This document shows, piece by piece, positions 24,819 through 63,541 of a DNA stretch of 64,000 nucleotides (position 1 is the stretch's first letter; every line of letters begins with the position of its first letter). The position numbers and the translations under genes were made by a program. Source of the stretch: Craterostigma plantagineum (taxonomy: Eukaryota; Streptophyta; Magnoliopsida; Lamiales; Linderniaceae); contig JAPQWV010000125.1 in NCBI GenBank assembly GCA_027422505.1, positions 868,001 to 932,000 of the forward strand. The letters run 5' to 3'. The notes beneath the pieces are model-generated. The model worked only from the letters and a program-made list of their open reading frames with translations, did no database searches and had not been told where the DNA came from.

Positions 24819-25179
24819 GGCCAAATTATTATTTTAGGTCACTAAGTATACATGTTTTCGATTTTGGGTCACTGTGTTTGATAATTGTAAAAGTAGGTCA
24901 CTAACTATTGTCAAAAACAAATTTGGGTTACCCTTTCATTTGTGGGTCACTAAGTATACATGTTTTCGATTTTGGGTCACTACGTTTTTATGAATGCGAA
25001 AATGGATTTAATATAGCGACCCAAAAACTTAAAACACATATACTTAGTGATCCAAAAATGGGAGGATGACCCGAATTTGTTTAAACATATATAGTAAGTG
25101 ACCTATTTTTTCAATTATCAAACATAGTGATCCAAAAAAGAAAACATGCGAACTTAGTGACCTAAAATTATATTTTGGC
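24819..25179. mobile_element. MULE-type MITE with long inverted repeats (361 bp)
   Basis: Terminal inverted repeats of about 110 bp, starting ggccaaattattattttagg and ending in the complementary taaaattatattttggc. Each contains three spaced taggtcact/gggtcact blocks. The 10-bp direct repeat atatataaca flanks it at 24809-24818 and 25180-25189. Long inverted repeats plus a 9-10-bp duplication indicate Mutator-like origin. No coding sequence. Confidence 0.85.
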
Positions 25180-31200: not shown

Positions 31201-31235
31201 ATCGGAAGACGAAATCATTGTTCGTGATTTGATCG

Positions 31236-31861
31236 ATGGCAACCAACGCAGCAACGATCCCTACCGGCAACCATGTCGAACGTCCTGCCAAATTCAACGG
31301 GACGGAGTTCAAACGCTGGCAACAAAAGATGATGTTCTATCTCACTACTCTCCACCTCGTCCGATTTCTGAAAGAAACTGCCCCTTCGGTGACTGAAGTC
31401 GCTCAACCAGCTGAGGGTGAAAACCCTAACGACGCAGCTTATGCTGCTCGTATCGCTCAATCTGAGCAAGAAAGGGCTGCGTTAGACGCATGGAATCATA
31501 ATGATTTCATGTGCCGCAATTATATCTGAATGCCCTCGATGACTCCCTATACAACGTCTATGCAGTGGCTACGACTGCGAAAGAGTTGTGGGATTCGTTG
31601 GATAAGAAATATAAGACCGACGATGCCGGACTAAAGAAGTTCATCGTTGGCAAGTTTCTGGATTATAAGATGACCTACTCTAAGCCGGTTCTGGACCAAG
31701 TCCGTGATCTGCAGCTGATTATCCACGATATTCACGCCGAAAATATGCAGATCAGCGAAACCTTCCAGGTAGCTGCGATTATCGAGAAGCTGCCGCCTTT
31801 GTGGAAGGATTTCAAGAATTACCTCAAGCACAAACGAAAGGAGATGGGCTTGAGGATTTGA
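31236..31861 (+). pseudogene. Copia-A gag, N-terminal part (frameshifted)
   Basis: Starts at the ATG 36 nt after the 5' LTR. The frame 31236-31529 (FNGTEFKRWQQKMMFYL) continues in another frame at 31511-31861 (LWDSLDKKYKTDDAG, then [20 protein letters not shown]). The peptides join if one base was lost near 31526. A second shift near 31845 leads into the next frame. These segments are the UBN2-type gag domain of plant Copia elements. Confidence 0.88.
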
Positions 31862-34822: not shown

Positions 34823-34833
34823 CTCGATCTACG

Positions 34834-35238
34834 ATGGAATCGGAGTTTATTGCACTAGACAAAGCCGGCGAAGAAGCAGAATGGCTTCGAAATTTTTTGG
34901 AGGACATTCCTTGTTGGAATAAGCATGTACCGCCTATTATGATACATTGCGACAGCATGGCCGCAATTGGTAGGGCACAGAATAGTATGTATAACGGTAA
35001 GTCTCGACACATTCGTCGAAGACATAATACTGTACGACAACTGATCTCTAGTGGAATAATTGCTATTGACTATGTGAAGTCTAAAGAGAATATAGCAGAT
35101 CCTTTGACGAAAGGTATTGCTAGAGATCAGCATTATAATGCAGTAAGGGGAATGGGGCTTAAAAACCACACACCCAAGAATGAGCTCGGTGGTAACTCAA
35201 CCATGATGAGTGGAGATCCCACAAACTTGGTTCAATGA
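34834..35238 (+). pseudogene. Copia-A RNase H
   Basis: 134 codons of the C-terminal RNase H: STMESEF-type start (the segment begins [18 protein letters not shown]), [13 protein letters not shown] with a catalytic-type Asp, [16 protein letters not shown], and [16 protein letters not shown]. The frame differs from the preceding reverse transcriptase segment because of an indel near 34790-34830. It ends at TGA (35236-35238), about 0.5 kb before the 3' LTR. Confidence 0.92.
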
Positions 35239-35743
35239 GACAACTAAGCTGAGTGAAGTTTAGTAGTTTACTTGGAACTTTTCTAAGAAGTTCATTCTCA
35301 TAAGCTGCCCAAGTAATTACCGATGTCGTGTGGTAAAGGGTAAGCAATTTTGCTTTTAATGATGGCTATACGTGATGGTGGAGTATTTCGGGATACTCTA
35401 GGATTAAGTCCTAATAGTCGATCACCTATATAAGTGAGAAGTGGGGCCGCTTCAATGCAACACTTATGAATCCAAGATATGGTCCAAGGCCGAAATGGAC
35501 ACAACATGAGAATCGAAAGAAATAAGATTCGTCACTGTGTGTACGCTGTTGTCTTAATTTACACAAAAGCTGTCAGTTCAAGACATCATGTTCACTGAAC
35601 AGCGAGTAAATTCGATTGCGTTTTCACTAGGGAAGGTTCAAAGCCACAAGCTACCTATCCCGATGCAGTGACGAGTTGTCAAGTTTTTCTTGCAAGAGTC
35701 AGCATGCATAGCATTTGCATTAATTTCCATTCATGTGGGGGAT

Positions 35744-37174
35744 TGTTGGATTTTATTAAACCAATTGGGTTTTGGGCCCAAATGGGTATTAACCCATTAA
35801 TAAAATCAGTTTCGGTTTTAATTAAATCGGAAAGCCATCGAATGTCGAAATGAAAAATCGTTGAAAGATTACGAATCTATGTCTCACGGGGATTCTAACG
35901 AATATTAATACGCTCAAAACCGATATCGGGTGAATGAGAAATTAATTTTCGAAGTTGGCCCAATAACCATTAAAATGGTTGGTAGTGTTTAAGTGGGAAT
36001 CAAGTGTCCCACATTGGTTAGACACTAAGAAAATCTTCACTATATATATAGAAACCCATGTGGGTTTAATCAAAAGGGCTTGCCATGTGTATGGGCTTAA
36101 AAGGGCTTGTGGGCTTAAAGTGGGTTTAAGTGGGCTTGAGAAACTTGTGTGAGTTTTGGCCTAAATAATAGCCCGGGTGCGAGTCGGTGCCTCGCACCGA
36201 CGAGCACTGAGCACCGAGCCCGAGTCCGTGCCGTGCCGTGCGCAATGGGCGCTTTGAGGCGCACTTCGCACGACGCATCGGAGCGAGGAGCATTGAGGAG
36301 CTACTTAAATTTTTCCTCCGGTGGGCAGCGACGGCGACGGTGCCGGAGACATGGCAGTCGAGGTGAAGCTGATTGGGCAGCCCAGATGTGATGGCTTGAT
36401 CCATTTGATCAATTGGGCTGAAGTGGGTTGTTGGGCTAATTCGGCCCAACTCAAGGAAGTGTCGGTCGGCCCAACTAGAGGCGTCGGTAGCCGCCTCGGG
36501 CCGTCGGTCGGAGAATCGGGCCGCCGCCGGTGGGACACGCCTGAGATTCGGGCTGTCGGCCCGAGAATCGGGCCTGTCGCGGGCCGGTAAATAAACCGAC
36601 AGTCCAATAGATGCAAAATGTTGCAATATAGTCCCTGGAAAATTACAGAATCAGCCTAGCAAGTTCTCGAATTTGCGGAGAGGTCCCTGCGACATAAAAT
36701 CTATAAATAGGCCCCCATTGAGATGGAATATTAATTCACTTCAACCCGAAAACTTGCATATTTCACTCCCAAACACCCCTATTTCCCTAAGTAAGAAAAA
36801 CTCATTTTCGAGTACGATTCGTTGGAAAATTATAGTCGTTGTGCTGCGATTATGAATTAAGGAAATGTCGTTGTATCTTGGGGACGATCGCTGCTAACCG
36901 AAAGCACTGTATATCGGGGCGATTTCGTCTTACGGACAGTGTGTCCAACACACGCCTCGACTACGTCTAAGGTCATGGATAGTCTTCATCAACTCCAGGC
37001 CTATTTATTCTTCATGTTGTGTATAATAGTTATCACATATGCCCTCATAATTATCTGGGTACTGGCAAACTGCACCTGCGGTTGAAGAACACTCCATCTT
37101 CCGACTATCTACTGCCGAAGTTTATCTATTGCCAAAGATCTCTGCCGCGACCAGACGCAACCACAGAAACAACA
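35744..37174 (+). repeat. 3' LTR of Copia-A
   Basis: 1431 bp, starting tgttggattt directly after the purine tract and ending aacaaca. It provides the uninterrupted reference for the other two copies of this LTR in the window. A GC-rich zone at about 36180-36590 gives chance ORFs on both strands. Confidence 0.95.
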
Positions 37175-37328
37175 AAATTTGCTCAAATTGGAGACAAAAA
37201 AACTGTCCCTTCTCTCCCCTTTGTTTAATTTATTTTTGCTATTTTTGTTGATTCTTATAACTTTTGAACTTTGTTTTTTCTCGTACAGAAGTTATTTTCT
37301 CTTTGTAGAAAATATTCATTCCAAAGGC

Positions 37329-42214: not shown

Positions 42215-42552
42215 GGGCCCATTTAGTTGGCATGATATAATAAGATAAAGCCCAAATTATCTTCCTCAGTATTGTTCGGTTGCAATAGCCCTTACTCTGT
42301 TAAAGCCCGAGACAAAACCTGAGCCCGCTTTAATAATCCAAGGCGCCCAACACTACTTATCCAATGAAGCCCTCCGAGATAAAAAACCCAACCCAAGATA
42401 AAACAACGAAATGGCCAAATTACCCCTAACTGCAGCAAATAGGCGCAATGGCAGATTTCATTTTTCATCTCCCGCTATTTCAGAGGCGAAGACTTGGTGG
42501 AGTGCTCCTTGGCGACTTTTGAAGCGATTTAGTATATGGCTCAGCGCCCGAC
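42215..42552 (+). mobile_element. Candidate PIF/Harbinger left end, interrupted by the TR-GAG array
   Basis: Sequence starting gggcccatttagttggcatg followed by ataagataa resembles the terminal repeat style of plant PIF/Harbinger elements (GGGCCCGTTTG-like). It lies upstream of a Harbinger transposase C-terminus and Myb-like gene that resume on the far side of the array (62.0-63.5 kb). The opposite terminus would lie beyond 64000, so this is a working interpretation. The segment 42400-42552 could also be leader sequence; it contains an ATG at 42536 with no long frame. Confidence 0.35.
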
Positions 42553-45156
42553 TATAACGACCCTCACTTTCTAACAAATATTTTGGCGGATTTTCGCAAC
42601 GTAAGTCGCGGAAGACCCGTCAATTTCAATTTATATTTGTGTTTAAAATTAAAATGTTAAACATTCGGAAGTCGATTCCAGAATCCGACACAACATAAAT
42701 TTTGGTCTCTTATTATTAAACACACAATACTCAAATTTATTCAACATAAACCACGACACTCCACAGGTCTTCATCCATGTACCGCCCGCTCTCAAAAGTC
42801 CCTGGAGTCACCGCCACAGCGCGCCTCAGTCGCGACAATGTCGTCAGACTCGTACCTACAACACGTAAACCTGAGCGATTGCCCAGTAGATGAAAATATA
42901 CATGAATGCAACGTGCGGTCACTCCCAAACCCGAATACCTCACAATAAAATGCACACGCGACTTTTTCCACTCTTCCCAATCCTATCATAGTCCAACACA
43001 AACAGGGCCCTAGGCTAGACTAGGCACCTCGCGCAACCCATTTAAGGAAGGAGTCAGGAGAGCAGATCTCGAGCAGCCCCGGCTCTCTCTCGAAACATCT
43101 ACCTGCCCCGGCGATGCCTACGCTGGTAGCATTCTCCCTGAGCTAACACTAACAGGTCGCCCCTTTCGCCAAACAGACCCTCTAAAGAGAGATCTCGACA
43201 GTACAACTGTCAGGTGCGCTAGACTATCCTCAACTCCACTACGAGTCGACTGCCAATATCGGCAACCTTACACATCGACACTACCCACCCCACACATCGA
43301 CACCTTAAGGTGTCAACATATTACATGATTATCCTCATCCCTCATGCTCATATGGAACGCATATGCCGTGTATATGAAATGCAACATCACACAACATCAC
43401 GTTCCCATATTATTTTCTCCACTCGGAACTCTTACACATAAAAAAAATCAGTAATTTACGATAATATTCCTTAACTCAAAACTTCATTATTCACTAAGCC
43501 TTAAGAATAATGAAACTTTCCTAAAACTTTCAGAAAACGTAAACCTTAAATTCCGGAAATATTCACAACCCGAAAACCTCACACAACCACAACGTCCTAG
43601 TACCTAAAACTAACTTCCTCAATTCTAACACATGTTTAAAGTTCATATAAATGCAATAGCATCTCGAAAATATATATAACCCACGTAATACACACCATTC
43701 TAACACACATTCGAAATTTCATATTAATGCAAAGAGCATCTTAAATAGATGTATTCGCATATGCACATAAACAACATATAACACATTCAAAACACTTTGT
43801 TAAACACAACAAACAATATTTATTTATTCCATTTCCAAAGGCATGCAACAATATCGAACTCCAGGCACATAGTACATGTAAGATATAAATTATTTACTCC
43901 ATTTTCAAAGGCATGCAACAATATCTATCATTTTCGAAAGCAAACAAAGCATTTTCAACAAGTTAACGTATTGGGGTGAATTTACTCACCTCCAATCCGA
44001 ATTTCACATAAAGGTTTACGTATCGTAGGTGAAATTTCCACCTACCTCACGTCCACAGCTTGGTTATTTGAGAGTTCCTAGCTTGCCCACCCTTTTCGTT
44101 TTGTTAATGTCTCTTCTTTCTCATTCGGACGTTTTTTCCTTTGTTTCAAATGTTTCCTCCCTTCTCCTTTCTTATTTGTGGAATAATGTAGATATAAGAT
44201 TTTCTAAGGGTTGATAACGTGAGGATTCCCTTTCTTTTGTTGTCTTCCTTGTTAATGAGGTGTAAATGTATTTTTATATGTAAAAGTTGTAGATCAATTT
44301 TTTTTTTTTTTTGAAAGATTCCTTTTGTCCCTTGAGTTGAGTAGGTAAGTGGTTATGGTTTGTAAATTTGTATCATTATTAATGTTCTAGGTAATGGAAA
44401 TACACGTTAGTTCCCTCTTTGATTAAGCAAATTTGTCCCTTGTGTATAATATACATTTTTCTATAATTTACTAAATAATATTATAAATCCCATCTTGAGG
44501 TTTTTGGCATTTTATGGATAATAATTTGTTGATGACTAAGTTTTCCACATGATTGAGCTAAGTTTGTCTTGTCATGTTTAATGTTTTATGATTTCCATAT
44601 GATAATTAGTATATGACGAAACTTTTCACATGATTAAGCAAAATTTGTCTTGTATGTACACTATTTTATTATTTCCTCATCATTGCCTTTTACTTACTTC
44701 TTAATTTTCGTAACTTTCTAACGGTCCCCACTAATTGAAATGTTAAGAGATGTATCTTAAAGCCATGTGATTTGGCAAGTTGGTGACAAACTTTACCTCA
44801 TGGGTAAACTAAGGTTCCTCCCTCATATATGTTATTTTATTTCTCTTATCCATTTTTATCTCTAATTATTACTAATATTATAAATATATGCCATTGTATC
44901 TAACCACAAAAATCATTAAGCCTTTGCGGGAAACTTCAATAACCCCAATGAGTCAATACATTTTTTTCTTTTTTTATTTGAGTGTTCCTTATTTTTAAAT
45001 ATTTATTCCACTAAGTATTAATTCAAAATTCCTGATTATATTTTTCACCCAAAAATCTTACATTCGTTATCTAAATAATACAGCTAAATTTGTAATTTAA
45101 TATCTGTCTTGCTAATTATATTATAAATCCCGTATTTAAATTTTACGTTTATTACA
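42553..45156 (-). repeat. Array LTR1 (outer, 3' LTR)
   Basis: 2604 bp. Minus-strand start TGTAATAA, end GTTATA. It keeps the 52-bp block that LTR2 and LTR3 lack (about 43007-43058). Private differences include cacagcgcgcctc, acgtttattaca at its border and one extra acaacatc near 43390. The palindrome gacaccttaaggtgtc is at 43299-43314. Confidence 0.93.
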
Positions 45157-45468
45157 TTCTCCCACCCTTAAAAAAATTTCGCCCCCGAAATTACGCCGAC
45201 TGGAATAATTCGGGGTGTTTATCTTTCCTTCTCACTACCCTCTTCCAGGTATTCGTTAATAGTCGTTTTCACATTTCCCGTACTTGGGTAAGTGAATAAT
45301 TCTCCACTATTAACAATTACGACTCCACTATACTTCCGCTACGCTTATTCAATTTTTTTTTTAATGGAATAGGATTTATTCCTACCATTGTCACGCAATT
45401 AGCCGACCCATCCAAATGTGTGACTCGGTCGCCTAAGATTGAAAATAAGTATGCGAATACTTCGAAAT

Positions 45469-46586
45469 TTACGTACCCGTATTCATCACAGGGTTTGCTT
45501 CCTCAGCGGTTAGAGTAAATACTCTCCCAGTGGCCGGTGGTAGTTGTGCTGGCTCTTGTATGGGAGTAGGGCGTGGGTTCGCCTGACAGTCTCGGGCGAA
45601 ATGTCCCGGCTTGCCACATCGAAAACATTGTATCACTGTCCTTGGTCCTGGACCGTAACAAACGCCCCTGTGATAGCGTCCACACTGTTGACATCGTGGC
45701 GCGGGGTTTTGAGGTTGGACATGGTTATTGTTAAGTTCCTGTTTTGGCCTAGGTTGCCCTGGGCGTTTATTCAGATTATTGTTTGGACCTTTCTCAAAAA
45801 CCTGACGCTTCCTATTAGCCTCTCCTTCCAGCTGGCTCTCCGCTTTTCTCTTTTCCTCGTGGGCCTTTGCAATCTGAACCTCTGCTTGCTCCGCGATAAG
45901 TGCTCGTTCTGCCACTTGAGCAAACGCAATTCTCGTGTTCCCGCCATGCTTACATCTCGATAGATCTCAGGTTTGAGACCTACTTGGAATCGCTCTACCT
46001 TTAATGCATTCGTCGCCACCATGTGCGGCGCAAAGCGCGACAGCTCCTCAAACTTGCGAATATATTCAGCGATAGTTTGCTCGCCTTGCTTCAGATTTAT
46101 GAACTCGTTCATTTTTCGAGTTCGGTCATGGCTGGTGAAATATTTCTCACGGAATAATTCTCGGAATCTTTCCCATGGCATAGTCATTGGGTCCTCTAAG
46201 ACTCTGATGGTATCCCACCAAAACCTTGCGTTCCCCCGGAGCATAGAAACGGCACACAATACCCGTTCATTCTCAGGAACCCGACCATACAAGAACATAT
46301 CCTCTATGGTACACAACCAATCGTCGGCCAAGGTAGGATCGACGGCATCCTCAAAGGTCGGAGGGATCAATTTACGGAACCGTTCCCCTATTATTTCTAC
46401 ACGTTCGGGTGGTGTAGGATGTTGCTCAGATGAGTTACGGTGATTGATCAACCCGTTGATCTGATCCGACTGACGTCGAATCAGTTCAGTAAGGCGCAAG
46501 ATCGTGGAGTCTCGTTCAGTTGTGGGTGACTCGGATGCAACTCCACGACTTGCCTCTCCATTGTTTTCTCTACGTCCCCTCGTCAT
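45469..46586 (-). pseudogene. gag of array unit 1 (one frameshift)
   Basis: Ty3/gypsy-type gag. The first frame (46586-45771) starts MTRGRRENNG and contains the capsid-type domain: FRKLIPPTFEDAVDPTLADDW, then MLRGNARFWWDTIRVLEDP, FREKYFTSHDRTRKMNEFI and YIRKFEELSRFAPHM. Near 45925-45950 (at MAGTRELRLL) the homologous reading moves to the second frame, which continues to 45469 through a Glu/Lys-rich stretch. Two knuckles follow: CQQCGRYHRGVC and CFRCGKPGHFARDC. It ends at VFTLTAEEANPVM, just where the protease would begin in an autonomous gypsy element. One private change here is CTIED where the other units have RTIED. The frameshift is shared by all four units. Confidence 0.92.
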
Positions 46587-46743
46587 TTTGGCGTACTATC
46601 TACAACATTCACGCAAACAAGTATATTTATCTAATCAAGCAAAAACTTAAAAACTTACAGGCAAGGCTGATTGATCCTCCAGGCTTTTGAGCGGCAGTAC
46701 ATGGACAGTCTACAGAACCTCTAACCTAAGCTCTGATACCACC

Positions 46744-49289
46744 TATAACGACCCTCACTTTCTAACAAATATTTTGGCGGATTTTCGCAACGTAAGTCGC
46801 GGAAGACCCGTCAATTTCAATTTATATTTGTGTTTAAAATTAAAATGTTAAACATTCGGAAGTCGATTCCAGAATCCGACACAACATAAATTTTGGTCTC
46901 TTATTATTAAACACACAATACTCAAATTTATTCAACATAAACCACGACACTCCACAGGTCTTCATCCATGTACCGCCCGCTCTCAAAAGTCCCTGGAGTC
47001 ACCGCCACAGCCCGCCTCAGTCGCGACAATGTCGTCAGACTCGTACCTACAACACGTAAACCTGAGCGATTGCCCAGTAGATGAAAATATACATGAATGC
47101 AACGTGCGGTCACTCCCAAACCCGAATACCTCACAATAAAATGCACACTCGACTTTTTCCACTCTTCCCAATCCTATCATAGTCCAACACAAACAGGAGA
47201 GCAGATCTCGAGCAGCCCCGGCTCTCTCTCGAAACATCTACCTGCCCCGGCGATGCCTACGCTGGTAGCATTCTCCCTGAGCTAACACTACCAGGTCGCC
47301 CCTTTCGCCAAACAGACCCTCTAAAGGGAGATCTCGACAGTACAACTGTCAGGTGCGCTAGACTATCCTCAACTCCACTACGAGTCGACTGCCAATATCG
47401 GCAACCTTACACATCGACACTACCCACCCCACACATCGACACCTTAAGGTGTCAACATATTACATGATTATCCTCATCCCTCATGCTCATATGGAACGCA
47501 TATGCCGTGTATATGAAATGCAACATCACCATCACGTTCCCATATTATTTTCTCCACTCGGAACTCTTACACATAAAAAAAATCAGTAATTTACGATAAT
47601 ATTCCTTAACTCAAAACTTCATTATTCACTAATCCTTAAGAATAATGAAAACTTTCCTAAAACTTTCAGAAAACGTAAACCTTAAATTCCGGAAATATTC
47701 ACAACCCGAAAACCTCACACAACCACAACGTCCTAGTACCTAAAACTAACTTCCACAATTCTAACATATGTTTAAAGTTCATATAAATGCAATAGCATCT
47801 CGAAAATATATAACCCACGTAATACACACCATTCTAACACACATTCGAAATTTCATATTAATGCAAAGAGCATCTTAAATAGATGTATTCGCATATGCAC
47901 ATAAACAACATATAACACATTCAAAACACTTTGTTAAACACAACAAACAAATTTATTTATTCCATTTCCAAAAGGCATGCAACAATATCGAACTCCAGGC
48001 ACATAGTACATGTAAGATACAAATTATTTACTCAATTTTCAAAGGCATGCAACAATATCTATCATTTTCGAAAGCAAACAAAGCATTTTCAACAAGTTAA
48101 CGTATTGGGGTGAATTTACTCACCTCCAATCCGAATTTCACATAAAGGTTTACGTATCGTAGGTGAAATTTCCACCTACCTCACGTCCACAGCTTGGTTA
48201 TTTGAGAGTTCCTAGCTTGCCCACCCTTTTCGTTTTGTTAATGTCTCTTCTTTCTCATTCGGACGTTTTTTCCTTTTGTTTCAAATGTTTCCTCCCTTCT
48301 CCTTTCTTATGTTGTGGAATAATGTAGATATAAGATTTTCTAAGGGTTGATAACGTGAGGATTCCCTTTCTTTTGTTGTCTTCCTTGTTAATGAGGTGTA
48401 AATGTATTTTTATATGTAAAAGTTGTAGATCAATTTTTTTTTTTTTGAAAGATTCCTTTTGTCCCTTGAGTTGAGTAGGTAACGTGGTTATGGTTTGTAA
48501 ATTTTTATCATTATTATTGTTCTACGTAATGGAAATACACGTTAGTTCCGTCTTTGATTAAGCAAATTTGTCCCTTGTGTATAATATACATTTTTCTATA
48601 ATTTACTAAATAATATTATAAATCCCATCTTGAGGTTTTTGGCATTTTATGGATAATAATTTGTTGATGACTAAGTTTTCCACATGATTGAGCTAAGTTT
48701 GTCTTGTCATGTTTAATGTTTTATGATTTCCATATGATAATTAGTATATGACGAAACTTTTCACATGATTAAGCAAAATTTGTCTTGTATGTACACTATT
48801 TTATTATTTCCTCATCATTGCCTTTTACTTACTTCTTAATTTTCGTAACTTTCTAACGGTCCCCACTAATTGAAATGTTAAGAGATGTATCTTAAAGCCA
48901 TGTTTTGGCAAGTTGGTGACAAACTTTACCTCATGGGTAAACTAAGGTTCCTCCCTCATATATGTTATTTTATTTCTCTTATCCATTTTATCTCTAATTA
49001 TTACTAATATTATAAATATATGCCATTGTATCTAACCACAAAAATCATTAAGCCTTTGCGGGAAACTTCAATAACCCCAATGAGTCAATACATTTTTTTT
49101 CTTTTTTTATTTGAGTGTTCCTTATTTTTAAATATTTATTCCACTAAGTATTAATTCAAAATTCCTGATTATATTTTTCACCCAAAAATCTTACATTCGT
49201 TATCTAAATAATACAGCTAAATTTGTAATTTAATATCTGTCTTGCTAATTATATTATAAATCCCGTATTTAAATTTTACGGTTATTACA
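46744..49289 (-). repeat. Array LTR2
   Basis: 2546 bp. It lacks the 52-bp block (deletion between cagg microrepeats near 47193) and lacks the 4-bp agcc insertion found in LTR3-LTR5. It shares the shortened gccatgttttgg form with LTR3. Confidence 0.93.
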
Positions 49290-49601
49290 TTCTCCCATCC
49301 TTAAAAAAATTTCGCCCCCGAAATTACGCCGACTGGAATAATTCGGGGTGTTTATCTTTCCTTCTCACTACCCTCTTCTAGGTATTCGTTAATAGTCGTT
49401 TTCACATTTCCCGTACTTGGGTAAGTGAATAATTCTCCACTGTTAACAATTACGACTCCACTATACTTCCGCTACGCTTATTCAATTTTTTTTTTAATGG
49501 AATAGGATTTATTCCTACCATTGTCACGCAATTAGCCGACCCATCCAAATGTGTGACTCGGTCGCCTAAGATTGAAAATAAGTATGCGAATACTTCGAAA
49601 T

Positions 49602-50719
49602 TTACGTACCCGTATTCATCACAGGGTTTGCTTCCTCAGCGGTTAGAGTAAATACTCTCCCAGTGGCCGGTGGTAGTTGTGCTGGCTCTTGTATGGGAGT
49701 AGGGCGTGGGTTCGCCTGACAGTCTCGGGCGAAATGTCCCGGCTTGCCACATCGAAAACATTGTATCACTGTCCTTGGTCCTGGACCGTAACAAACGCCC
49801 CTGTGATAGCGTCCACACTGTTGACATCGTGGCGCGGGGTTTTGAGGTTGGACATGGTTATTGTTGAGTTCCTGTTTTGGCCTAGGTTGCCCTGGGCGTT
49901 TATTCAGATTATTGTTTGGACCTTTCTCAAAAACTTGACGCTTCCTATTAGCCTCTCCTTCCAGCTGGCTCTCCGCTTTTCTCTTTTCCTCGTGGGCCTT
50001 TGCGATCTGAACCTCTGCTTGCTCCGCGATAAGTGCTCGTTCTGCCACTTGAGCAAACGCAATTCTCGTGTTCCCGCCATGCTTACATCTCGATAGATCT
50101 CAGGTTTGAGACCTACTTGGAATCGCTCTACCTTTAATGCATTCGTCGCCACCATGTGCGGCGCAAAGCGCGACAGCTCCTCAAACTTGCGAATATATTC
50201 AGCGATAGTTTGCTCGCCTTGCTTCAGATTTATGAACTCGTTCATTTTTCGAGTTCGGTCATGGCTGGTGAAATATTTCTCACGGAATAATTCTCGGAAT
50301 CTTTCCCATGGCATAGTCATTGGGTCCTCTAAGACTCTGATGGTATCCCACCAAAACCTTGCGTTCCCCCGGAGCATAGAAACGGCACACAATACCCGTT
50401 CATTCTCAGGAACCCGACCATACAAGAACATATCCTCTATGGTACGCAACCAATCGTCGGCCAAGGTAGGATCGACGGCATCCTCAAAGGTCGGAGGGAT
50501 CAATTTACGGAACCGTTCCCCTATTATTTCTACACGTTCGGGTGGTGTAGGATGTTGCTCAGATGAGTTACGGTGATTGATCAACCCGTTGATCTGATCC
50601 AACTGACGTCGAATCAGTTCAGTAAGGCGCAAGATCGTGGAGTCTCGTTCAGTTGTGGGTGACTCGGATGCAACTCCACGACTTGCCTCTCCATTGTTTT
50701 CTCTACGTCCCCTCGTCAT
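49602..50719 (-). pseudogene. gag of array unit 2 (same frameshift)
   Basis: Collinear with unit 1 and nearly identical. The 271-codon first frame (50719-49904) and 148-codon second frame (50048-49602) overlap in the same way, so the same one-base frame change is present. Both knuckles are intact. Private changes include RQLDQ for RQSDQ near the N-terminus. Of the four copies, units 1 and 2 are the least damaged. Confidence 0.92.
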
Positions 50720-50876
50720 TTTGGCGTACTATCTACAACATTCACGCAAACAAGTATATTTATCTAATCAAGCAAAAACTTAAAAACTTACAGGCAAGGC
50801 TGATTGATCCTCCAGGCTTTTGAGCGGCAGTACATGGACAGTCTACAGAACCTCTAACCTAAGCTCTGATACCACC

Positions 50877-53428
50877 TATAACGACCCTCACTTTCTAACA
50901 AATATTTTGGCGGATTTTCGCAACGTAAGTCGCGGAAGACCCGTCAATTTCAATTTATATTTGTGTTTAAAATTAAAATGTTAAACATTCGGAAGTCGAT
51001 TCCAGAATCCGACACAACATAAATTTTGGTCTCTTATTATTAAACACACAATACTCAAATTTATTCAACATAAACCACGACACTCCACAGGTCTTCACCC
51101 ATGTACCGCCCGCTCTCAAAAGTCCCTGGAGTCACCGCCACAGCCCGCCTCAGTCGCGACAATGTCGTCAGACTCAGCCGTACCTACAACACGTAAACCT
51201 GAGCGATTGCCCAGTAGATGAAAATATACATGAATGCAACGTGCGGTCACTCCCAAACCCGAATACCTCACAATAAAATGCACACTCGACTTTTTCCACT
51301 CTTCCCAATCCTATCATAGTCCAACACAAACAGGAGAGCAGATCTCGAGCAGCCCCGGCTCTCTCTCGAAACATCTACCTGCCCCGGCGATGCCTACGCT
51401 GGTAGCATTCTCCCTGAGCTAACACTACCAGGTCGCCCCTTTCGCCAAACAGACCCTCTAAAGAGAGATCTCGACAGTACAACTGTCAGGTGCGCTAGAC
51501 TATCCTCAACTCCACTACGAGTCGACTGCCAATATCGGCAACCTTACACATCGACACTACCCACCCCACACATCGACACCTTAAGGTGTCAACATATTAC
51601 ATGATTATCCTCATCCCTCATGCTCATATGGAACGCATATGCCGTGTATATGAAATGCAACATCACCATCACGTTCCCATATTATTTTCTCCACTCGGAA
51701 CTCTTACACATAAAAAAAATCAGTAATTTACGATAATATTCCTTAACTCAAAACTTCATTATTCACTAATCCTTAAGAATAATGAAAACTTTCCTAAAAC
51801 TTTCAGAAAACGTAAACCTTAAATTCCGGAAATATTCACAACCCGAAAACCTCACACAACCACAACGTCCTAGTACCTAAAACTAACTTCCACAATTCTA
51901 ACATATGTTTAAAGTTCATATAAATGCAATAGCATCTCGAAAATATATATAACCCACGTAATACACACCATTCTAACACACATTCGAAATTTCATATTAA
52001 TGCAAAGAGCATCTTAAATAGATGTATTCGCATATGCACATAAACAACATATAACACATTCAAAACACTTTGTTAAACACAACAAACAAATTTATTTATT
52101 CCATTTCCAAAAGGCATGCAACAATATCGAACTCCAGGCACATAGTACATGTAAGATACAAATTATTTACTCCATTTTCAAAGGCATGCAACAATATCTA
52201 TCATTTTCGAAAGCAAACAAAGCATTTTCAACAAGTTAACGTATTGGGGTGAATTTACTCACCTCCAATCCGAATTTCACATAAAGGTTTACGTATCGTA
52301 GGTGAAATTTCCACCTACCTCACGTCCACAGCTTGGTTATTTGAGAGTTCCTAGCTTGCCCACCCTTTTCGTTTTGTTAATGTCTCTTCTTTCTCATTCG
52401 GACGTTTTTTCCTTTTGTTTCAAATGTTTCCTCCCTTCTCCTTTCTTATGTTGTGGAATAATGTAGATATAAGATTTTCTAAGGGTTGATAACGTGAGGA
52501 TTCCCTTTCTTTTGTTGTCTTCCTTGTTAATGAGGTGTAAATGTATTTTTATATGTAAAAGTTGTAGATCAATTTTTTTTTTTTTGAAAGATTCCTTTTG
52601 TCCCTTGAGTTGAGTAGGTAACGTGGTTATGGTTTGTAAATTTTTATCATTATTATTGTTCTACGTAATGGAAATACACGTTAGTTCCGTCTTTGATTAA
52701 GCAAATTTGTCCCTTGTGTATAATATACATTTTTCTATAATTTACTAAATAATATTATAAATCCCATCTTGAGGTTTTTGGCATTTTATGGATAATAATT
52801 TGTTGATGACTAAGTTTTCCACATGATTGAGCTAAGTTTGTCTTGTCATGTTTAATGTTTTATGATTTCCATATGATAATTAGTATATGACGAAACTTTT
52901 CACATGATTAAGCAAAATTTGTCTTGTATGTACACTATTTTATTATTTCCTCATCATTGCCTTTTACTTACTTCTTAATTTTCGTAACTTTCTAACGGTC
53001 CCCACTAATTGAAATGTTAAGAGATGTATCTTAAAGCCATGTTTTGGCAAGTTGGTGACAAACTTTACCTCATGGGTAAACTAAGGTTCCTCCCTCATAT
53101 ATGTTATTTTATTTCTCTTATCCATTTTATCTCTAATTATTACTAATATTATAAATATATGCCATTGTATCTAACCACAAAAATCATTAAGCCTTTGCGG
53201 GAAACTTCAATAACCCCAATGAGTCAATACATTTTTTTCTTTTTTTTATTTGAGTGTTCCTTATTTTTAAATATTTATTCCACTAAGTATTAATTCAAAA
53301 TTCCTGATTATATTTTTCACCCAAAAATCTTACATTCGTTATCTAAATAATACAGCTAAATTTGTAATTTAATATTTGTCTTGCTAATTATATTATAAAT
53401 CCCGTATTTAAATTTTACGGTTATTACA
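50877..53428 (-). repeat. Array LTR3 (mosaic)
   Basis: 2552 bp. It shares the 52-bp deletion and gccatgttttgg with LTR2 but carries the agcc insertion (actcagccgtacc) of LTR4 and LTR5, so it combines markers of both neighbours. Confidence 0.93.
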
Positions 53429-53740
53429 TTCTCCCACCCTTAAAAAAATTTCGCCCCCGAAATTACGCCGACTGGAATAATTCGGGGTGTTTATCTTTCC
53501 TTCTCACTACCCTCTTCTAGGTATTCGTTAATAGTCGTTTTCACATTTCCCGTACTTGGGTAAGTGAATAATTCTCCACTGTTAACAATTACGACTCCAC
53601 TATACTTCCGCTACGCTTATTCAATTTTTTTTTTAATGGAATAGGATTTATTCCTACCATTGTCACGCAATTAGCCGACCCATCCAAATGTGTGACTCGG
53701 TCGCCTAAGATTGAAAATAAGTATGCGAATACTTCGAAAT

Positions 53741-54857
53741 TTACGTACCCGTATTCATCACAGGGTTTGCTTCCTCAGCGGTTAGAGTAAATACTCTCCC
53801 AGTGGCCGGTGGTAGTTGTGCTGGCTCTTGTATGGGAGTAGGGCGTGGGTTCGCCTGACAGTCTCGGGCGAAATGTCCCGGCTTGCCACATCGAAAACAT
53901 TGTATCACTGTCCTTGGTCCTGGACCGTAACAAACGCCCCTGTGATAGCGTCCACACTGTTGACGTCGTGGCGCGGGGTTTTGAGGTTGGACATGGTTAT
54001 TGTTGAGTTCCTGTTTTGGCCTAGGTTGCCCTGGGCGTTTATTCAGATTATTGTTTGGACCTTTCTCAAAAACTTGACGCTTCCTATTAGCCTCTCCTTC
54101 CAGCTGGCTCTCCGCTTTTCTCTTTTCCTCGTGGGCCTTTGCGATCTGAACCTCTGCTTGCTCCGCGATAAGTGCTCGTTCTGCCACTTGAGCAAACGCA
54201 ATTCTCGTGTTCCCGCCATGCTTACATCTCGATAGATCTCAGGTTTGAGACCTACTTGGAATCGCTCTACCTTTAATGCATTCGTCGCCACCATGTGCGG
54301 CGCAAAGCGCGACAGCTCCTCAAACTTGCGAATGTATTCAGCGATAGTTTGCTCGCCTTGCTTCAGATTTATGAACTCGTTCATTTTTCGAGTTCGGTCA
54401 TGGCTGGTGAAATATTTCTCACGGAATAATTCTCGGAATCTTTCCCATGGCATAGTCATTGGGTCCTCTAAGACTCTGATGGTATCCCACCAAAACCTTG
54501 CGTTCCCCCGGAGCATAGAAACGGCACACAATACCCGTTCATTCTCAGGAACCCGACCATACAAGAACATATCCTCTATGGTACGCAACCAATCGTCGGC
54601 CAAGGTAGGATCGACGGCATCCTCAAAGGTCGGAGGGATCAATTTACGGAACCGTTCCCCTATTATTTCTACACGTTCGGGTGGTGTAGGATGTTGCTCA
54701 GATGAGTTACGGTGATTGATCAACTCGTGATCTGATCCGACTGACGTCGAATCAGTTCAGTAAGGCGCAAGATCGTGGAGTCTCGTTCAGTTGTGGGTGA
54801 CTCGGATGCAACTCCACGACTTGCCTCTCCATTGTTTTCTCTACGTCCCCTCGTCAT
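53741..54857 (-). pseudogene. gag of array unit 3 (two frameshifts, damaged knuckle)
   Basis: Same gag. A one-base loss at about 54725 (caactcgtgatc instead of caacccgttgatc) cuts the N-terminal 40 or so codons from the rest, so the long frame starts at MINHRN (54723). The shared frameshift follows. The first zinc knuckle reads RQQCGRYHRGVC, its leading Cys changed to Arg; the second is intact. The internal region has a 4-bp deletion near the primer-binding site (aggctgatcc), shared with unit 4. Confidence 0.92.
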
Positions 54858-55010
54858 TTTAGCGTACTATCTACAACATTCACGCAAACAAGTATATTTA
54901 TCTAATCAAGCAAAAACTTAAAAACTTACAGGCAAGGCTGATCCTCCAGGCTTTTGAGCGGCAGTACATGGACAGTCTACAGAACCTCTAACCTAAGCTC
55001 TGATACCACC

Positions 55011-57615
55011 TATAACGACCCTCACTTTCTAACAAATATTTTGGCGGATTTTCGCAACGTAAGTCGCGGAAGACCCGTCAATTTCAATTTATATTTGTGT
55101 TTAAAATTAAAATGTTAAACATTCGGAAGTCGATTCCAGAATCCGACACAACATACATTTTGGTCTCTTATTATTAAACACACAATACTCAAATTTATTC
55201 AACATAAACCACGACACTCCACAGGTCTTCATCCATGTACCGCCCGCTCTCAAAAGTCCCTGGAGTCACCGCCACAGCCCGCCTCAGTCGCGACAATGTC
55301 GTCAGACTCAGCCGTACCTACAACACGTAAACCTGAGCGATTGCCCAGTAGATGAAAATATACATGAATGCAACGTGCGGTCACTCCCAAACCCGAATAC
55401 CACACAATAAAATGCACACTCGACTTTTTCCACTCTTCCCAATCCTATCATAGTCCAACACAAACAGGGCCCTAGGCTAGACTAGGCACCTCGCGCAACC
55501 CATTTAAGGAAGGAGTCAGGAGAGCAGATCTCGAGCAGCCCCGGCTCTCTCTCGAAACATCTACCTGCCCCGGCGATGCCTACGCTGGTAGCATTCTCCC
55601 TGAGCTAACACTACCAGGTCGCCCCTTTCGCCAAACAGACCCTCTAAAGAGAGATCTCGACAGTACAACTGTCAGGTGCGCTAGACTATCCTCAACTCCA
55701 CTACGAGTCGACTGCCAATATCGGCAACCTTACACATCGACACTACCCACCCCACACATCGACACCTTAAGGTGTCAACATATTACATGATTATCCTCAT
55801 CCCTCATGCTCATATGGAACGCATATGCCGTGTATATGAAATGCAACATCACCATCACGTTCCCATATTATTTTCTCCACTCGGAACTCTTACACATAAA
55901 AAAAATCAGTAATTTACGATAATATTCCTTAACTCAAAACTTCATTATTCACTAATCCTTAAGAATAATGAAAACTTTCCTAAAACTTTCAGAAAACGTA
56001 AACCTTAAATTCCGGAAATATTCACAACCCGAAAACCTCACACAACCACAACGTCCTAGTACCTAAAACTAACTTCCACAATTCTAACACATGTTTAAAG
56101 TTCATATAAATGCAATAGCATCTCGAAAATATATATAACCCACGTAATACACACCATTCTAACACACATTCGAAATTTCATATTAATGCAAAGAGCATCT
56201 TAAATAGATGTATTCGCATATGCACATAAACAACATATAACACATTCAAAACACTTTGTTAAACACAACAAACAAATTTATTTATTCCATTTCCAAAAGG
56301 CATGCAACAATATCGAACTCCAGGCACATAGTACATGTAAGATACAAATTATTTACTCCATTTTCAAAGGCATGCAACAATATCTATCATTTTCGAAAGC
56401 AAACAAAGCATTTTCAACAAGTTAACGTATTGGGGTGAATTTACTCACCTCCAATCCGGATTTCACATAAAGGTTTACGTATCGTAGGTGAAATTTCCAC
56501 CTACCTCACGTCCACAGCTTGGTTATTTGAGAGTTCCTAGCTTGCCCACCCTTTTCGTTTTGTTAATGTCTCTTCTTTCTCATTCGGACGTTTTTTCCTT
56601 TTGTTTCAAATGTTTCCTCCCTTCTCCTTTCTTATGTTGTGGAATAATGTAGATATAAGATTTTCTAAGGGTTGATAACGTGAGGATTCCCTTTCTTTTG
56701 TTGTCTTCCTTGTTAATGAGGTGTAAATGTATTTTTATATGTAAAAGTTGTAGATCAATTTTTTTTTTTTCAAAGATTCCTTTTGTCCCTTGAGTTGAGT
56801 AGGTAACGTGGTTATGGTTTGTAAATTTTTATCATTATTATTGTTCTAGGTAATGGAAATACACGTTAGTTCCGTCTTTGATTAAGCAAATTTGTCCCTT
56901 GTGTATAATATACATTTTTCTATAATTTACTAAATAATATTATAAATCCCATCTTGAGGTTTTTGGCATTTTATGGATAATAATTTGTTGATGACTAAGT
57001 TTTCCACATGATTGAGCTAAGTTTGTCTTGTCATGTTTAATGTTTTATGATTTCCATATGATAATTAGTATATGACGAAACTTTTCACATGATTAAGCAA
57101 AATTTGTCTTGTATGTACACTATTTTATTATTTCCTCATCATTGCCTTTTACTTACTTCTTAATTTTCGTAACTTTCTAACGGTCCCCACTAATTGAAAT
57201 GTTAAGAGATGTATCTTAAAGCCATGTGATTTGGCAAGTCGGTGACAAACTTTACCTCATGGGTAAACTAAGGTTCCTCCCTCATATATGTTATTTTATT
57301 TCTCTTATCCATTTTTATCTCTAATTATTACTAATATTATAAATATATGCCATTGTATCTAACCACAAAAATCATTAAGCCTTTGCGGGAAACTTCAATA
57401 ACCCCAATGAGTCAATACATTTTTTTCTTTTTTTATTTGAGTGTTCCTTATTTTTAAATATTTATTCCACTAAGTATTAATTCAAAATTCCTGATTATAT
57501 TTTTCACCCAAAAATCTTACATTCGTTATCTAAATAATACAGCTAAATTTGTAATTTAATATCTGTCTTGCTAATTATATTATAAATCCCGTATTTAAAT
57601 TTTACGGTTATTACA
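55011..57615 (-). repeat. Array LTR4
   Basis: 2605 bp. It keeps the 52-bp block, has agcc, and shares acatacattttgg with LTR5 only. Confidence 0.93.
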
Positions 57616-57928
57616 TTCTCCCACCCTTAAAAAAATTTCGCCCCCGAAATTACGCCGACTGGAATAATTCGGGGTGTTTATCTTTCCTTCTCACTACCCT
57701 CTTCTAGGTATTCGTTAATAGTCGTTTTCACATTTCCCGTACTTGGATAAGTGAATAATTCTCCACTGTTAACAATTACGACTCCACTATACTTCCGCTA
57801 CGCTTATTCAATTTTTTTTTTTAATGGAATAGGATTTATTCCTACCATTGTCACGCAATTAGCCGACCCATCCAAATGTGTGACTCGGTCGCCTAAGATT
57901 GAAAATAAGTATGCGAATACTTCGAAAT

Positions 57929-59045
57929 TTACGTACCCGTATTCATCACAGGGTTTGCTTCCTCAGCGGTTAGAGTAAATACTCTCCCAGTGGCCGGTGG
58001 TAGTTGTGCTGGCTCTTGTATGGGAGTAGGGCGTGGGTTCGCCTGACAGTCTCGGGCGAAATGTCCCGACTTGCCACATCGAAAACATTGTATCACTGTC
58101 CTTGGTCCTGGACCGTAACAAACGCCCCTGTGATAGCGTCCACACTGTTGACATCGTGGCGCGGGGTTTTGAGGTTGGACATGGTTATTGTTGAGTTCCT
58201 ATTTTGGCCTAGGTTGCCCTGGGCGTTTATTCAGATTATTGTTTGGACCTTTCTCAAAAACTTGACGCTTCCTATTAGCCTCTCCTTCCAGCTGGCTCTC
58301 CGCTTTTCTCTTTTCCTCGTGGGCCTTTGCGATCTGAACCTCTGCTTGCTCCGCGATAAGTGCTCGTTCTGCCACTTGAGCAAACGCAATTCTCGTGTTC
58401 CCGCCATGCTTACATCTCGATAGATCTCAGGTTTGAGACCTACTTGGAATCGCTCTACCTTTAATGCATTCGTCGCCACCATGTGCGGCGCAAAGCGCGA
58501 CAGCTCCTCAAACTTGCGAATATATTCAGCGATAGTTTGCTCGCCTTGCTTCAGATTTATGAACTCGTTCATTTTTCGAGTTCGGTCATGGCTGGTGAAA
58601 TATTTCTCACGGAATAATTCTCGGAATCTTTCCCATGGCATAGTCATTGGGTCCTCTAAGACTCTGATGGTATCCCACCAAAACCTTGCGTTCCCCCGGA
58701 GCATAGAAACGGCACACAATACCCGTTCATTCTCAGGAACCCGACCATACAAGAACATATCCTCTATGGTACGCAACCAATCGTCGGCCAAGGTAGGATC
58801 GACGGCATCCTCAAAGGTCGGAGGGATCAATTTACGGAACCGTTCCCCTATTATTTCTACACGTTCGGGTGGTGTAGGATGTTGCTCAGATGAGTTACGG
58901 TGATTGATCAACTCGTGATCTGATCCGACTGACGTCGAATCAGTTCAGTAAGGCGCAAGATCGTGGAGTCTCGTTCAGTTGTGGGTGACTCGGATGCAAC
59001 TCCACGACTTGCCTCTCCATTGTTTTCTCTACGTCCCCTCGTCAT
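57929..59045 (-). pseudogene. gag of array unit 4 (two frameshifts plus nonsense codon)
   Basis: It shares with unit 3 the one-base loss near its N-terminus (long frame 58911-58231 starting MINHRN) and the 4-bp deletion near the primer-binding site, and with all units the central frameshift. In addition the second frame has a C-to-T change making TAG at 58199-58201 (Gln to stop, just before the knuckles), and the second knuckle has Pro to Ser (CGKSGHF). It is the most decayed copy. Confidence 0.92.
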
Positions 59046-59198
59046 TTTAGCGTACTATCTACAACATTCACGCAAACAAGTATATTTATCTAATCAAGCA
59101 AAAACTTAAAAACTTACAGGCAAGGCTGATCCTCCAGGCTTTTGAGCGGCAGTACATGGACAGTCTACAGAACCTCTAACCTAAGCTCTGATACCACC

Positions 59199-61805
59199 TA
59201 TAACGACCCTCACTTTCTAACAAATATTTTGGCGGATTTTCGCAACGTAAGTCGCGGAAGACCCGTCAATTTCAATTTATATTTGTGTTTAAAATTAAAA
59301 TGTTAAACATTCGGAAGTCGATTCCAGAATCCGACACAACATACATTTTGGTCTCTTATTATTAAACACACAATACTCAAATTTATTCAACATAAACCAC
59401 GACACTCCACAGGTCTTCATCCATGTACCGCCCGCTCTCAAAAGTCCCTGGAGTCACCGCCACAGCCCGCCTCAGTCGCGACAATGTCGTCAGACTCAGC
59501 CGTACCTACAACACGTAAACCTGAGCGATTGCCCAGTAGATGAAAATATACATGAATGCAACGTGCGGTCACTCCCAAACCCGAATACCTCACAATAAAA
59601 TGCACACTCGACTTTTTCCACTCTTCCCAATCCTATCATAGTCCAACACAAACAGGGCCCTAGGCTAGACTAGGCACCTCGCGCAACCCATTTAAGGAAG
59701 GAGTCAGGAGAGCAGATCTCGAGCAGCCCCGGCTCTCTCTCGAAACATCTACCTGCCCCGGCGATGCCTACGCTGGTAGCATTCTCCCTGAGCTAACACT
59801 ACCAGGTCGCCCCTTTCGCCAAACAGACCCTCTAAAGAGAGATCTCGACAGTACAACTGTCAGGTGCGCTAGACTATCCTCAACTCCACTACGAGTTGAC
59901 TGCCAATATCGGCAACCTTACACATCGACACTACCCACCCCACACATAGACACCTTAAGGTGTCAACATATTACATGATTATCCTCATCCCTCATGCTCA
60001 TATGGAACGCATATGCCGTGTATATGAAATGCAACATCACCATCACGTTCCCATATTATTTTCTCCACTCGGAACTCTTACGCATAAAAAAAATCAGTAA
60101 TTTACGATAATATTCCTTAACTCAAAACTTCATTATTCACTAATCCTTAAGAATAATGAAAACTTTCCTAAAACTTTCAGAAAACGTAAACCTTAAATTC
60201 CGGAAATATTCACAACCCGAAAACATCACACAACCACAACGTCCTAGTACCTAAAACTAACTTCCACAATTCTAACACATGTTTAAAGTTCATATAAATG
60301 CAATAGCATCTCGAAAATATATATAACCCACATAATACACACCATTCTAACACACATTCGAAATTTCATATTAATGCAAAGAGCATCTTAAATAGATGTA
60401 TTCGCATATGCACATAAACAACATATAACACATTCAAAACACTTTGTTAAACACAACAAACAAATTTATTTATTCCATTTCCAAAAGGCATGCAACAATA
60501 TCGAACTCCAGGCACATAGTACATGTAAGATACAAATTATTTACTCCATTTTCAAAGGCATGCAACAATATCTATCATTTTCGAAAGCAAACAAAGCATT
60601 TTCAACAAGTTAACGTATTGGGGTGAATTTACTCACCTCCAATCCGAATTTCACATAAAGGTTTATGTATCGTAGGTGAAATGTCCACCTACCTCACGTC
60701 CACAGCTTGGTTATTTGAGAGTTCCTAGCTTGCCCACCCTTTTCGTTTTGTTAATGTCTCTTCTTTCTCATTCGGACGTTTTTTCCTTTTGTTTCAAATG
60801 TTTCCTCCCTTCTCCTTTCTTATGTTGTGGAATAATGTAGATATAAGATTTTCTAAGGGTTGATAACGTGAGGATTCCCTTTCTTTTGTTGTCTTCCTTG
60901 TTAATGAGGTGTAAATGTATTTTTATATGTAAAAGTTGTAGATCAATTTTTTTTTTTTTTTTGAAAGATTCCTTTTGTCCCTTGAGTTGAGTAGGTAACG
61001 TGGTTATGGTTTGTAAATTTTTATCATTATTATTGTTCTAGGTAATGGAAATACACGTTAGTTCCGTCTTTGATTAAGCAAATTTGTCCCTTGTGTATAA
61101 TATACATTTTTCTATAATTTACTAAATAATATTATAAATCCCATCTTGAGGTTTTTGGCATTTTATGGATAATAATTTGTTGATGACTAAGTTTTCCACA
61201 TGATTGAGCTAAGTTTGTCTTGTCATGTTTAATGTTTTATGATTTCCATATGATAATTAGTATATGACGAAACTTTTCACATGATTAAGCAAAATTTGTC
61301 TTGTATGTACACTATTTTATTATTTCCTCATCATTGCCTTTTACTTACTTCTTAATTTTCGTAACTTTCTAACGATCCCACTAATTGAAATGTTAAGAGA
61401 TGTATCTTAAAGCCATGTGATTTGGCAAGTTGGTGACAAACTTTACCTCATGGGTAAACTAAGGTTCCTCCCTCATATATGTTATTTTATTTCTCTTATC
61501 CATTTTTATCTCTAATTATTACTAATATTATAAATATATGCCATTGTATCTAACCACAAAAATCATTAAGCCTTTGCGGGAAACTTCAATACCCCAATGA
61601 GTCAATACATTTTTTTCTTTTTTTATTTGAGTGTTCCTTATTTTTAAATATTTATTCCACTAAGTATTAATTCAAAATTCCTGATTATATTTTTCACCCA
61701 AAAATCTTACATTCGTTATCTAAATAATACAGCTAAATTTGTAATTTAATATCTGTCTTGCTAATTATATTATAAATCCCGTATTTAAATTTTACGGTTA
61801 TTACA
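59199..61805 (-). repeat. Array LTR5 (outer, 5' LTR)
   Basis: 2607 bp. It keeps the 52-bp block, has agcc and acatacattttgg like LTR4. It ends ggttattaca immediately before the right copy of the ccgac duplication. The palindrome is retained although the adjacent base changed (catagacacc). Confidence 0.93.
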
Positions 61806-61810
61806 CCGAC

Positions 61811-62264: not shown

Positions 62265-62497
62265 TTTGGTTGTTGTGCAAGTTTTTTTTGGGTGTGGTTT
62301 GTTAACGTGGATTCGTACTATGTTGCATAGATTGTATTGAACGTGTCCACCTCCCGTTTTAATGAATGCTAACTGTATTTATTGTTGGAATTAGTATATG
62401 TGGTTCGTATGAAAATGAATGACTTGAATATGTTCGTTGTGTTGTGGATTTTTTTCACTCATTTTTCTACTGTGGATTAACTTCAGCATTTTGAGGC

Positions 62498-63541
62498 ATG
62501 TTTCAGGATCTCATGGAACTCACAGCGGGTACAAACTTCAGGTCAAATCCGCCATTTAAGGAGAGAAACAGTAGGCGTGGGTGGAGTCAGCAAGAACAAA
62601 TGACTCTGATAAACGCAATGAAAGAAATAGTGGCGAGTGGTTGGAGGTGTGAGAATGGATTCAAGGCCGGGTATCTTAAGATCCTAGAAGCTCGCATGAT
62701 GTCCGCTTTTCCGGGATCCGACATTCGCGCGTCGCCGGACATTACCTCACGTCTTCAAACATGGAAGAAATATTATTACAGCCTCTCTAGTATGCTAAGT
62801 ATGACCGGGATTGGGTGGAATGACTCGACGAAAACGAGTGATGTTTTTTAGGATCAATGTTGGAATGAATCTGTGAAGGTATCTGTGAAGGTACGAAGCT
62901 CTCTTTATTTTCTAAGATATGTTAAGCACATATTATACTTTAACAATCCTTTTTGTTGAACAGAAAGACCCACTTGCTAAGTCGATGCGCCACAAATCTT
63001 GGCCATACTATAATGAGTGGGCTGAAATATTTGGAAAAGATCGTGCTACGGGTGACCATGCGGAGGACATCGAGGAAGTGATACGAACCAGGTGTGTTTA
63101 AATGGGACTGATTGGTCATTCAGCACTGGTGAACGCGAGAATAATACTCCAAATGGGACTGATTTTCCTCAAGGTTCGGCAACAGACGAGGTAGTTAGCG
63201 GGTCCAATGGAGGAGGTAACGGAAACACGCAACGCCGTGCTCGAAAACGGAAAATCAATGAAGTCGATAAAGAGTTGATCGACATAATAGGCAAGTATTG
63301 TGCGGAAACCAATGCTGCTCTTCAACGGTTCATCTCCATTGTTGAAGTTGAGAGCGACATAATCCTGAAAAAGTATAATGTCTACCAACAAATCGACGGA
63401 ATGGATGGACTAAGCCCTGATCATAAGCTTTTGATTTTGAAGTTCCTCGTCAATCATTGTGACGAACTTCGACTATTCGACAGTTTGCCGCCGGACATGA
63501 AATATCGCTACGTCATTAACACATTACGTACCCTTGTATGA
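62498..63541 (+). pseudogene. Myb/SANT-like DNA-binding protein (Harbinger ORF2 type)
   Basis: The first segment (62498-62851) holds a Myb/SANT-like domain (PF12776 type): RRGWSQQEQMTLINAMKEI, FKAGYLKILEARM, RLQTWKKYYYSLSSML and GIGWNDSTK, with the spaced tryptophans. An in-frame TAG (62849-62851) is followed in frame by DQCWNESVK, so it is a nonsense mutation. An intron of about 90 bp (gtatctgtg to ttgaacag) leads to KDPLAKSMRHKSWPYYNEW and EIFGKDRATGDHAEDI. A frame change near 63090 joins to 63092-63541, with a basic RRARKRKINEVDKE segment and a helical tail ending YRYVINTLRTLV. In PIF/Harbinger elements such a protein assists the transposase. Host L10-interacting-type Myb proteins share the domain, so a decayed host paralogue is an alternative. 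Confidence 0.7.

Follow-up and report, generated by a model that had tools for sequence, protein, structure and literature searches.

We have analysed a stretch of 64,000 nucleotides from Craterostigma plantagineum (contig JAPQWV010000125.1, positions 868,001 to 932,000; called the window below), and have found in it a tandem array in which five long terminal repeats (LTRs) and four internal bodies of one retrotransposon alternate between the two copies of a single 5-bp target-site duplication. A single integration is well supported by this lone duplication together with the intact junctions inside the array. Judging from the variants that the copies share, the best explanation is probably that the element integrated once and then grew in place by exchange between LTRs.

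Structure of the array

The alignment, self-BLAST, motif positions and edge checks all place five LTRs (2,546-2,607 bp) and four bodies (1,582-1,587 bp) in alternation and in a single orientation over positions 42553-61805, in agreement with the first-pass annotation of this DNA. The coding strand of the element is the minus strand, which puts its 5' LTR on the right. From left to right, all on the minus strand, the array consists of LTR1 (42553-45156, 2604 bp; the outermost left copy and, in element orientation, the 3' LTR of the array), body 1 (45157-46743, 1587 bp), LTR2 (46744-49289, 2546 bp), body 2 (49290-50876, 1587 bp), LTR3 (50877-53428, 2552 bp), body 3 (53429-55010, 1582 bp), LTR4 (55011-57615, 2605 bp), body 4 (57616-59198, 1583 bp), and LTR5 (59199-61805, 2607 bp; the outermost right copy and the 5' LTR of the array). 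In the self-BLAST of the window the array appears as a direct repeat at ~99% identity, and no additional copy of the repeat was found in the window outside it (matches >300 bp). A unit of ~4.1 kb, repeated at ~99% identity in one orientation, rules out chance.

According to the motif positions and the edge check, the target-site duplication CCGAC stands at 42548-42552 on the left and at 61806-61810 on the right. None of the eight inner LTR edges shows a target duplication or foreign DNA, so the earlier statement that CCGAC occurs only at the outermost ends is borne out. Instead, the bases adjoining the LTRs at these eight edges are constant, with CCACC on the left (4/4) and TTCTC on the right (4/4), which identifies the edges as primer-site and polypurine junctions belonging to the element itself. 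The LTRs start 4,191, 4,133, 4,134, and 4,188 bp apart, and most of this variation stems from the 52-bp deletion common to LTR2 and LTR3. The first-pass annotation had put the unit at ~4.15 kb.

Identity and coding content of the element

By its LTRs, 5-bp duplication, primer-binding site, polypurine tract and Ty3-type Gag, this is a Ty3/gypsy-type LTR retrotransposon. The motif TGGTATCAGAGC adjoins the LTR at the right end of each of the four bodies (46730-46741, minus strand, in body 1; again at 50863, 54997, and 59185), and we take it to be a primer-binding site of the initiator-methionine tRNA type. At the opposite, left end of body 1 lies the polypurine tract; on the minus strand, all four bodies show in the edge check a purine-rich tract ending in GGAGAA ahead of the TG of the next LTR. 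All five LTRs start with TGTAATAA and end with CGTTATA on this strand.

The gag of body 1 lies in two frames. Its capsid part (45774-46586, minus strand) matches Retrotrans_gag (PF03732, E 1.8e-19) and Ty3_capsid (PF19259, E 2.6e-13), and its zinc-knuckle part (45472-45966, minus strand, in a different frame) matches zf-CCHC (PF00098, E 1.2e-7). When pieces of bodies 1, 3, and 4 were scanned, Retrotrans_gag and Ty3_capsid were matched in bodies 1 and 3. We have found 13 relatives of the Gag, of which the named ones come from Olea, Rehmannia and Ficus, with one labelled Salmonella enterica. Compared with an Olea gag-protease relative, all four bodies have the capsid part in one frame and the zinc-knuckle part in another, and these two frames overlap in bodies 1 and 2. 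In addition, the upstream part of gag carries an extra 1-bp deletion common to bodies 3 and 4, and body 4 has an additional stop in the zinc-knuckle part. An intact Gag is rejected by these changes, and whole Gag is probably no longer made from the array, as far as the reading frames indicate.

The open frame stops at the boundary between gag and protease. Past this stop, in the alignments for bodies 1 and 4, a degraded match with a second stop reaches the DSG motif in the protease of the relative. Reverse transcriptase (RT), ribonuclease H (RNase H) and integrase are absent from the bodies of the array, where pol is limited to this degraded protease start; a body of only 1.58 kb leaves no space for the remainder of pol. 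The element is therefore a non-autonomous derivative whose body is reduced to a gag and protease relic. The label "gag-only", which the first reading had used, is right in that there is no pol beyond the relic, and needs qualification in that gag is frame-changed in 4/4 bodies and followed by the degraded protease-start match. An Rfam search gave no match at gathering scores.

Divergence among the copies

In the alignment of all ten pairs, the LTRs differ by 6 to 19 substitutions over about 2.54-2.60 kb, while the bodies differ by 5 to 11 substitutions over about 1.58 kb. The most divergent of the ten LTR pairs is LTR1-LTR5, i.e., the two outermost copies (19/2597, 0.73%). The private variants are distributed accordingly: LTR1 to LTR5 have 10, 2, 3, 4, and 8 private substitutions and 7, 1, 0, 1, and 3 private indels, respectively. 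The outer LTRs thus hold 18/27 private substitutions (one-sided binomial p 0.005) and 28/39 private substitutions and indels together (p 6e-5), and they still hold 18/25 private substitutions when the sites beside two homopolymer runs are left out (p 0.001). This excess suggests that the inner LTRs are either younger than the outer ones or have been homogenised. For bodies 1 to 4, the private substitutions number 6, 2, 2, and 3.

The variants shared between copies lie in neighbouring ones. LTR2 and LTR3 share the 52-bp deletion and five linked sites, whereas a 4-bp insertion (CAGC) is shared by LTR3, LTR4, and LTR5 and is absent from LTR1 and LTR2; LTR4 and LTR5 share one substitution. Among the bodies, two substitutions and two deletions (1 bp and 4 bp) are common to bodies 3 and 4. 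The two LTR indels occur in all four combinations, that is, neither in LTR1, the deletion only in LTR2, both in LTR3, and the insertion only in LTR4 and LTR5, which requires either exchange between copies or repeated mutation. The 52-bp segment (43007-43058 in LTR1) that LTR2 and LTR3 lack has the short repeat CAGG at its bounds, as in microhomology-mediated loss; it is therefore unlikely, though possible, that two LTRs lost it independently.

Reconstruction of the proposed growth history

We have enumerated 4,374 histories, each consisting of three one-unit LTR-LTR exchanges, and have scored them on 12 informative sites (nine LTR and four body sites, less one poly-T LTR site that was dropped). 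Nine of the 4,374 histories need no repeated mutation, with 12 changes for 12 sites, and all nine share one duplication order. If the array had instead doubled from one unit to two and then to four, 24 changes would be required, so the doubling of a two-unit array is rejected. The simultaneous origin of all units without exchange also requires 24 changes.

Several observations weigh against a history of one-unit exchanges. Among 2,880 shuffled copy orders, 240 (8%) are equally free of homoplasy, so that the order alone is not significant, and the 12 sites fall into just four patterns. The states of the shared variants are unpolarised. In the best history, LTR2 and LTR3 split before LTR4 and LTR5 did, but of all pairs LTR2-LTR3 has diverged least (6/2546 vs 12/2603 for LTR4-LTR5), which calls for chance or conversion. 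One exclusive variant, the poly-T length omitted from the search, is shared by LTR1 and LTR5. The excess at the ends is also uneven, being carried more by LTR1 (10 private substitutions) than by LTR5 (8), and LTR5 against the three inner LTRs gives 8 vs 9 private substitutions (p 0.04); among the bodies, only body 1 at the left end is long-branched.

Based on the above analyses, we propose the following course of events. A non-autonomous Ty3/gypsy-type element, with pol presumably supplied in trans, integrated once and left CCGAC on both sides, as the anatomy indicates. Thereafter, LTRs of sister chromatids or homologues, paired out of register, would have exchanged, or one LTR would have repaired a break in another, each event adding one body and one LTR. 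The shared variants suggest three such additions, leading to the present LTR-I-LTR-I-LTR-I-LTR-I-LTR order (I, body). Further exchange or conversion may have held the inner LTRs close to one another in sequence, while those at the ends drifted. The array would now be a passive tandem locus, whose number of units may rise or fall and which may also be reduced to a solo LTR.

For dating we have used substitution rates of 1.3e-8 and 7e-9 per site and year. The two rates give about 0.28 or 0.53 million years for LTR1-LTR5, 0.24 or 0.44 million years for body 1 against the other bodies, and 0.09-0.18 or 0.17-0.33 million years for the later splits, all of which rest on few substitutions and are to be read as orders of magnitude only.

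Alternative explanations

The most serious alternative, though we consider it rather unlikely, is that a tandem complementary DNA (cDNA), made from the read-through RNA of a one-LTR circle or by template switching between RNAs, was inserted whole, and that its inner LTRs were later made alike by conversion. Such an insertion likewise leaves one target duplication, and it would fit the 52-bp segment that is common to LTR1, LTR4, and LTR5 and absent from LTR2 and LTR3. This route is left open by PMC11899658 (Morales-Diaz et al. 2025) and in the excerpted text of PMC7215508, and the excerpt of PMC1950507 (Sabot and Schulman) describes cases of it. The same excerpt takes outer LTRs that closely resemble each other as a sign of template switching; in our array the outer LTRs are just 0.73% apart, but diverge more than any other of the ten pairs. 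Being identical after one reverse-transcription cycle, they should be the most alike unless they were spared homogenisation, and later homogenisation of the inner LTRs after a tandem insertion could indeed produce a most-divergent outer pair. Without any later exchange, whole insertion costs the 24 changes mentioned above, and 19 kb would be long for a single RNA or cDNA. The first-pass annotation had named one integration followed by repeated unequal LTR-LTR exchange as the simplest history. We have arrived at the same preference, with the single duplication and 12/12 variants without recurrence in its favour; it remains unproven, since the copy-order test is weak and a homogenised tandem cDNA would look similar.

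The other two explanations are less probable still. An assembly artefact, i.e., surplus units or an end-to-end fusion of two haplotypes within an LTR, has to be considered because the units are ~99% alike and the array is known from assembled sequence alone. We regard it as improbable, given that every LTR and every body has its own private variants and that the window is free of any N; the end-to-end joining of two haplotypes is rejected, as it would give likeness at an offset of two and cost 24 changes vs 12. It is even harder to believe in several independent insertions, nested or adjacent, which were then joined by recombination. The excerpt of PMC1950507 names recombination of adjacent insertions as the way in which shared-LTR complexes usually arise in Triticeae, and recombination of adjacent elements is also favoured for the multi-LTR Wukong elements in that of PMC4528315. 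However, such complexes are without matching outer duplications in the former account, whereas CCGAC matches on both sides of our array and the inner junctions have neither foreign DNA nor duplication. Nested or adjacent independent insertions are therefore rejected.

Growth in place by LTR-LTR exchange, if correct, would allow a further and much more tentative reading. The array might be a readable record of growth by one unit at a time, with the ends drifting and the inner copies homogenising, i.e., of the early birth of a satellite, and might decide in favour of chromosomal exchange the question that PMC11899658 left open for rice. The earlier description of an element "becoming" a satellite goes too far, as four units at one locus do not make a satellite. 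Five distinguishable LTRs do hold more historical marks than the three-LTR loci detailed in PMC11899658, and comparing accessions at this single locus could decide between insertion as a tandem and later exchange. Apart from the question of formation, the array is an ordinary source of structural variation.

Surroundings of the array

Plant genes in the window encode a PAP2 phosphatase, a lipid transfer protein, an AT-hook/PCC protein, and an A20/AN1 zinc finger protein, with retrotransposon remains between them; the nearest listed plant gene ends ~3 kb to the left of the array. Among the 120 matches listed for the AT-hook protein, out of 4,625 with only 7,992 candidates scored, Morella rubra comes first (63% over 66% of the query), followed by Erythranthe species (54-58% over 94%) and by numerous further dicots. 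Within the window, the array thus sits among genes and scattered repeats, outside any satellite block. About 0.7 kb to its right, a Myb/SANT-like domain (PF12776, E 4e-6) is encoded at 62495-62848 on the plus strand, a kind of domain which occurs in Harbinger-related and plant nuclear proteins.

A further LTR retrotransposon, which appears to be of Copia type, occupies 30048-37175, where self-BLAST detects direct repeats of ~1.15 kb at 94.9% identity (30048-31201 and 36017-37175). In its frame at 31708-33324 there are matches to a zinc knuckle, gag pre-integrase, Pol_BBD, and an integrase core, and RT-like frames follow by eye. Further retrotransposon pol fragments lie on the minus strand at 3246-6176, with an integrase core and an SH3-like domain at 5313-6176 and, by eye, an RNase H-like Copia fragment at 3246-3701. 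A 23-bp tandem repeat (20.7 copies, 77% matches) at 16922-17392 leaves one frame open for 163 codons, which is probably no gene. Self-BLAST also revealed imperfect palindromes at 19984-20500 (72% self-complementary) and 24820-25179 (78%), possibly fold-back elements or elements resembling miniature inverted-repeat transposable elements.

Comparison with known tandem LTR elements

The units of the known Cassandra arrays are shorter than those of the present array. In the excerpt of PMC7215508, Cassandra arrays and barley BARE1, for which at least 4,600 three-LTR structures are cited, resemble it in having shared LTRs and a unit number thought to vary by unequal exchange, and Cassandra differs in having no gag and a 5S domain in its LTRs.

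In plants, tandem LTR elements inside a single target duplication are reported to be widespread (PMC11899658). The potential tandem structures counted in that work number 266 in a rice pangenome, 11 in Arabidopsis, 11 in almond, and 130 in cotton. An over-representation of gypsy elements among them is seen in rice and Arabidopsis, but neither in cotton nor in almond. Of 66 Nipponbare cases, 28 showed a clear tandem structure, 10 of these 28 with a perfect 5-nt duplication, and whether such tandems are inserted as tandems or arise by later exchange was left open. Our array has the structure described there, with alternating LTRs and internal regions, an LTR at both ends, and a single target duplication. 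It is like the TLI loci (IDENTAM) of rice, Arabidopsis, almond, and cotton in the alternation of shared LTRs within one 5-nt duplication, and like TLI2, whose copies are 99% identical, the tandems of rice being mostly gypsy. The two loci detailed in that work have two bodies and three LTRs, whereas ours has four bodies and five LTRs, and the 28 curated rice tandems encode retrotransposon domains, in contrast to the gag relic here.

Longer series have also been reported. According to the excerpt of PMC4528315, the 89 intact Wukong elements of maize, which are terminal-repeat retrotransposons in miniature (TRIMs), include eight with three LTRs, five with four, and two with six and seven. They are likewise non-autonomous with several LTRs in the same orientation, but are small and without coding capacity, unlike the 2.6-kb LTRs and gag-relic bodies of our array. 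Together with the wide occurrence of tandems in plants, these cases show that the term "uncommon" in the first-pass annotation was an overstatement. CRM1TR and CRM4TR of maize and the sobo satellite are retrotransposon-derived tandem repeats as well (PMC3648361, in excerpt), and the CRM repeats have been proposed to grow when a broken LTR is repaired from the non-allelic one. CRM1TR and CRM4TR, however, consist of many monomers of part of the LTR and the untranslated region, at or near centromeres, whereas our array is made of four whole units.

Five LTRs of 2.6 kb within one duplication stand at the long end of the published cases compared here, though an equal case may be in print. Overall, the array is a clear, rather long, and well-preserved example of the known tandem LTR elements of plants, with a history that is partly readable.

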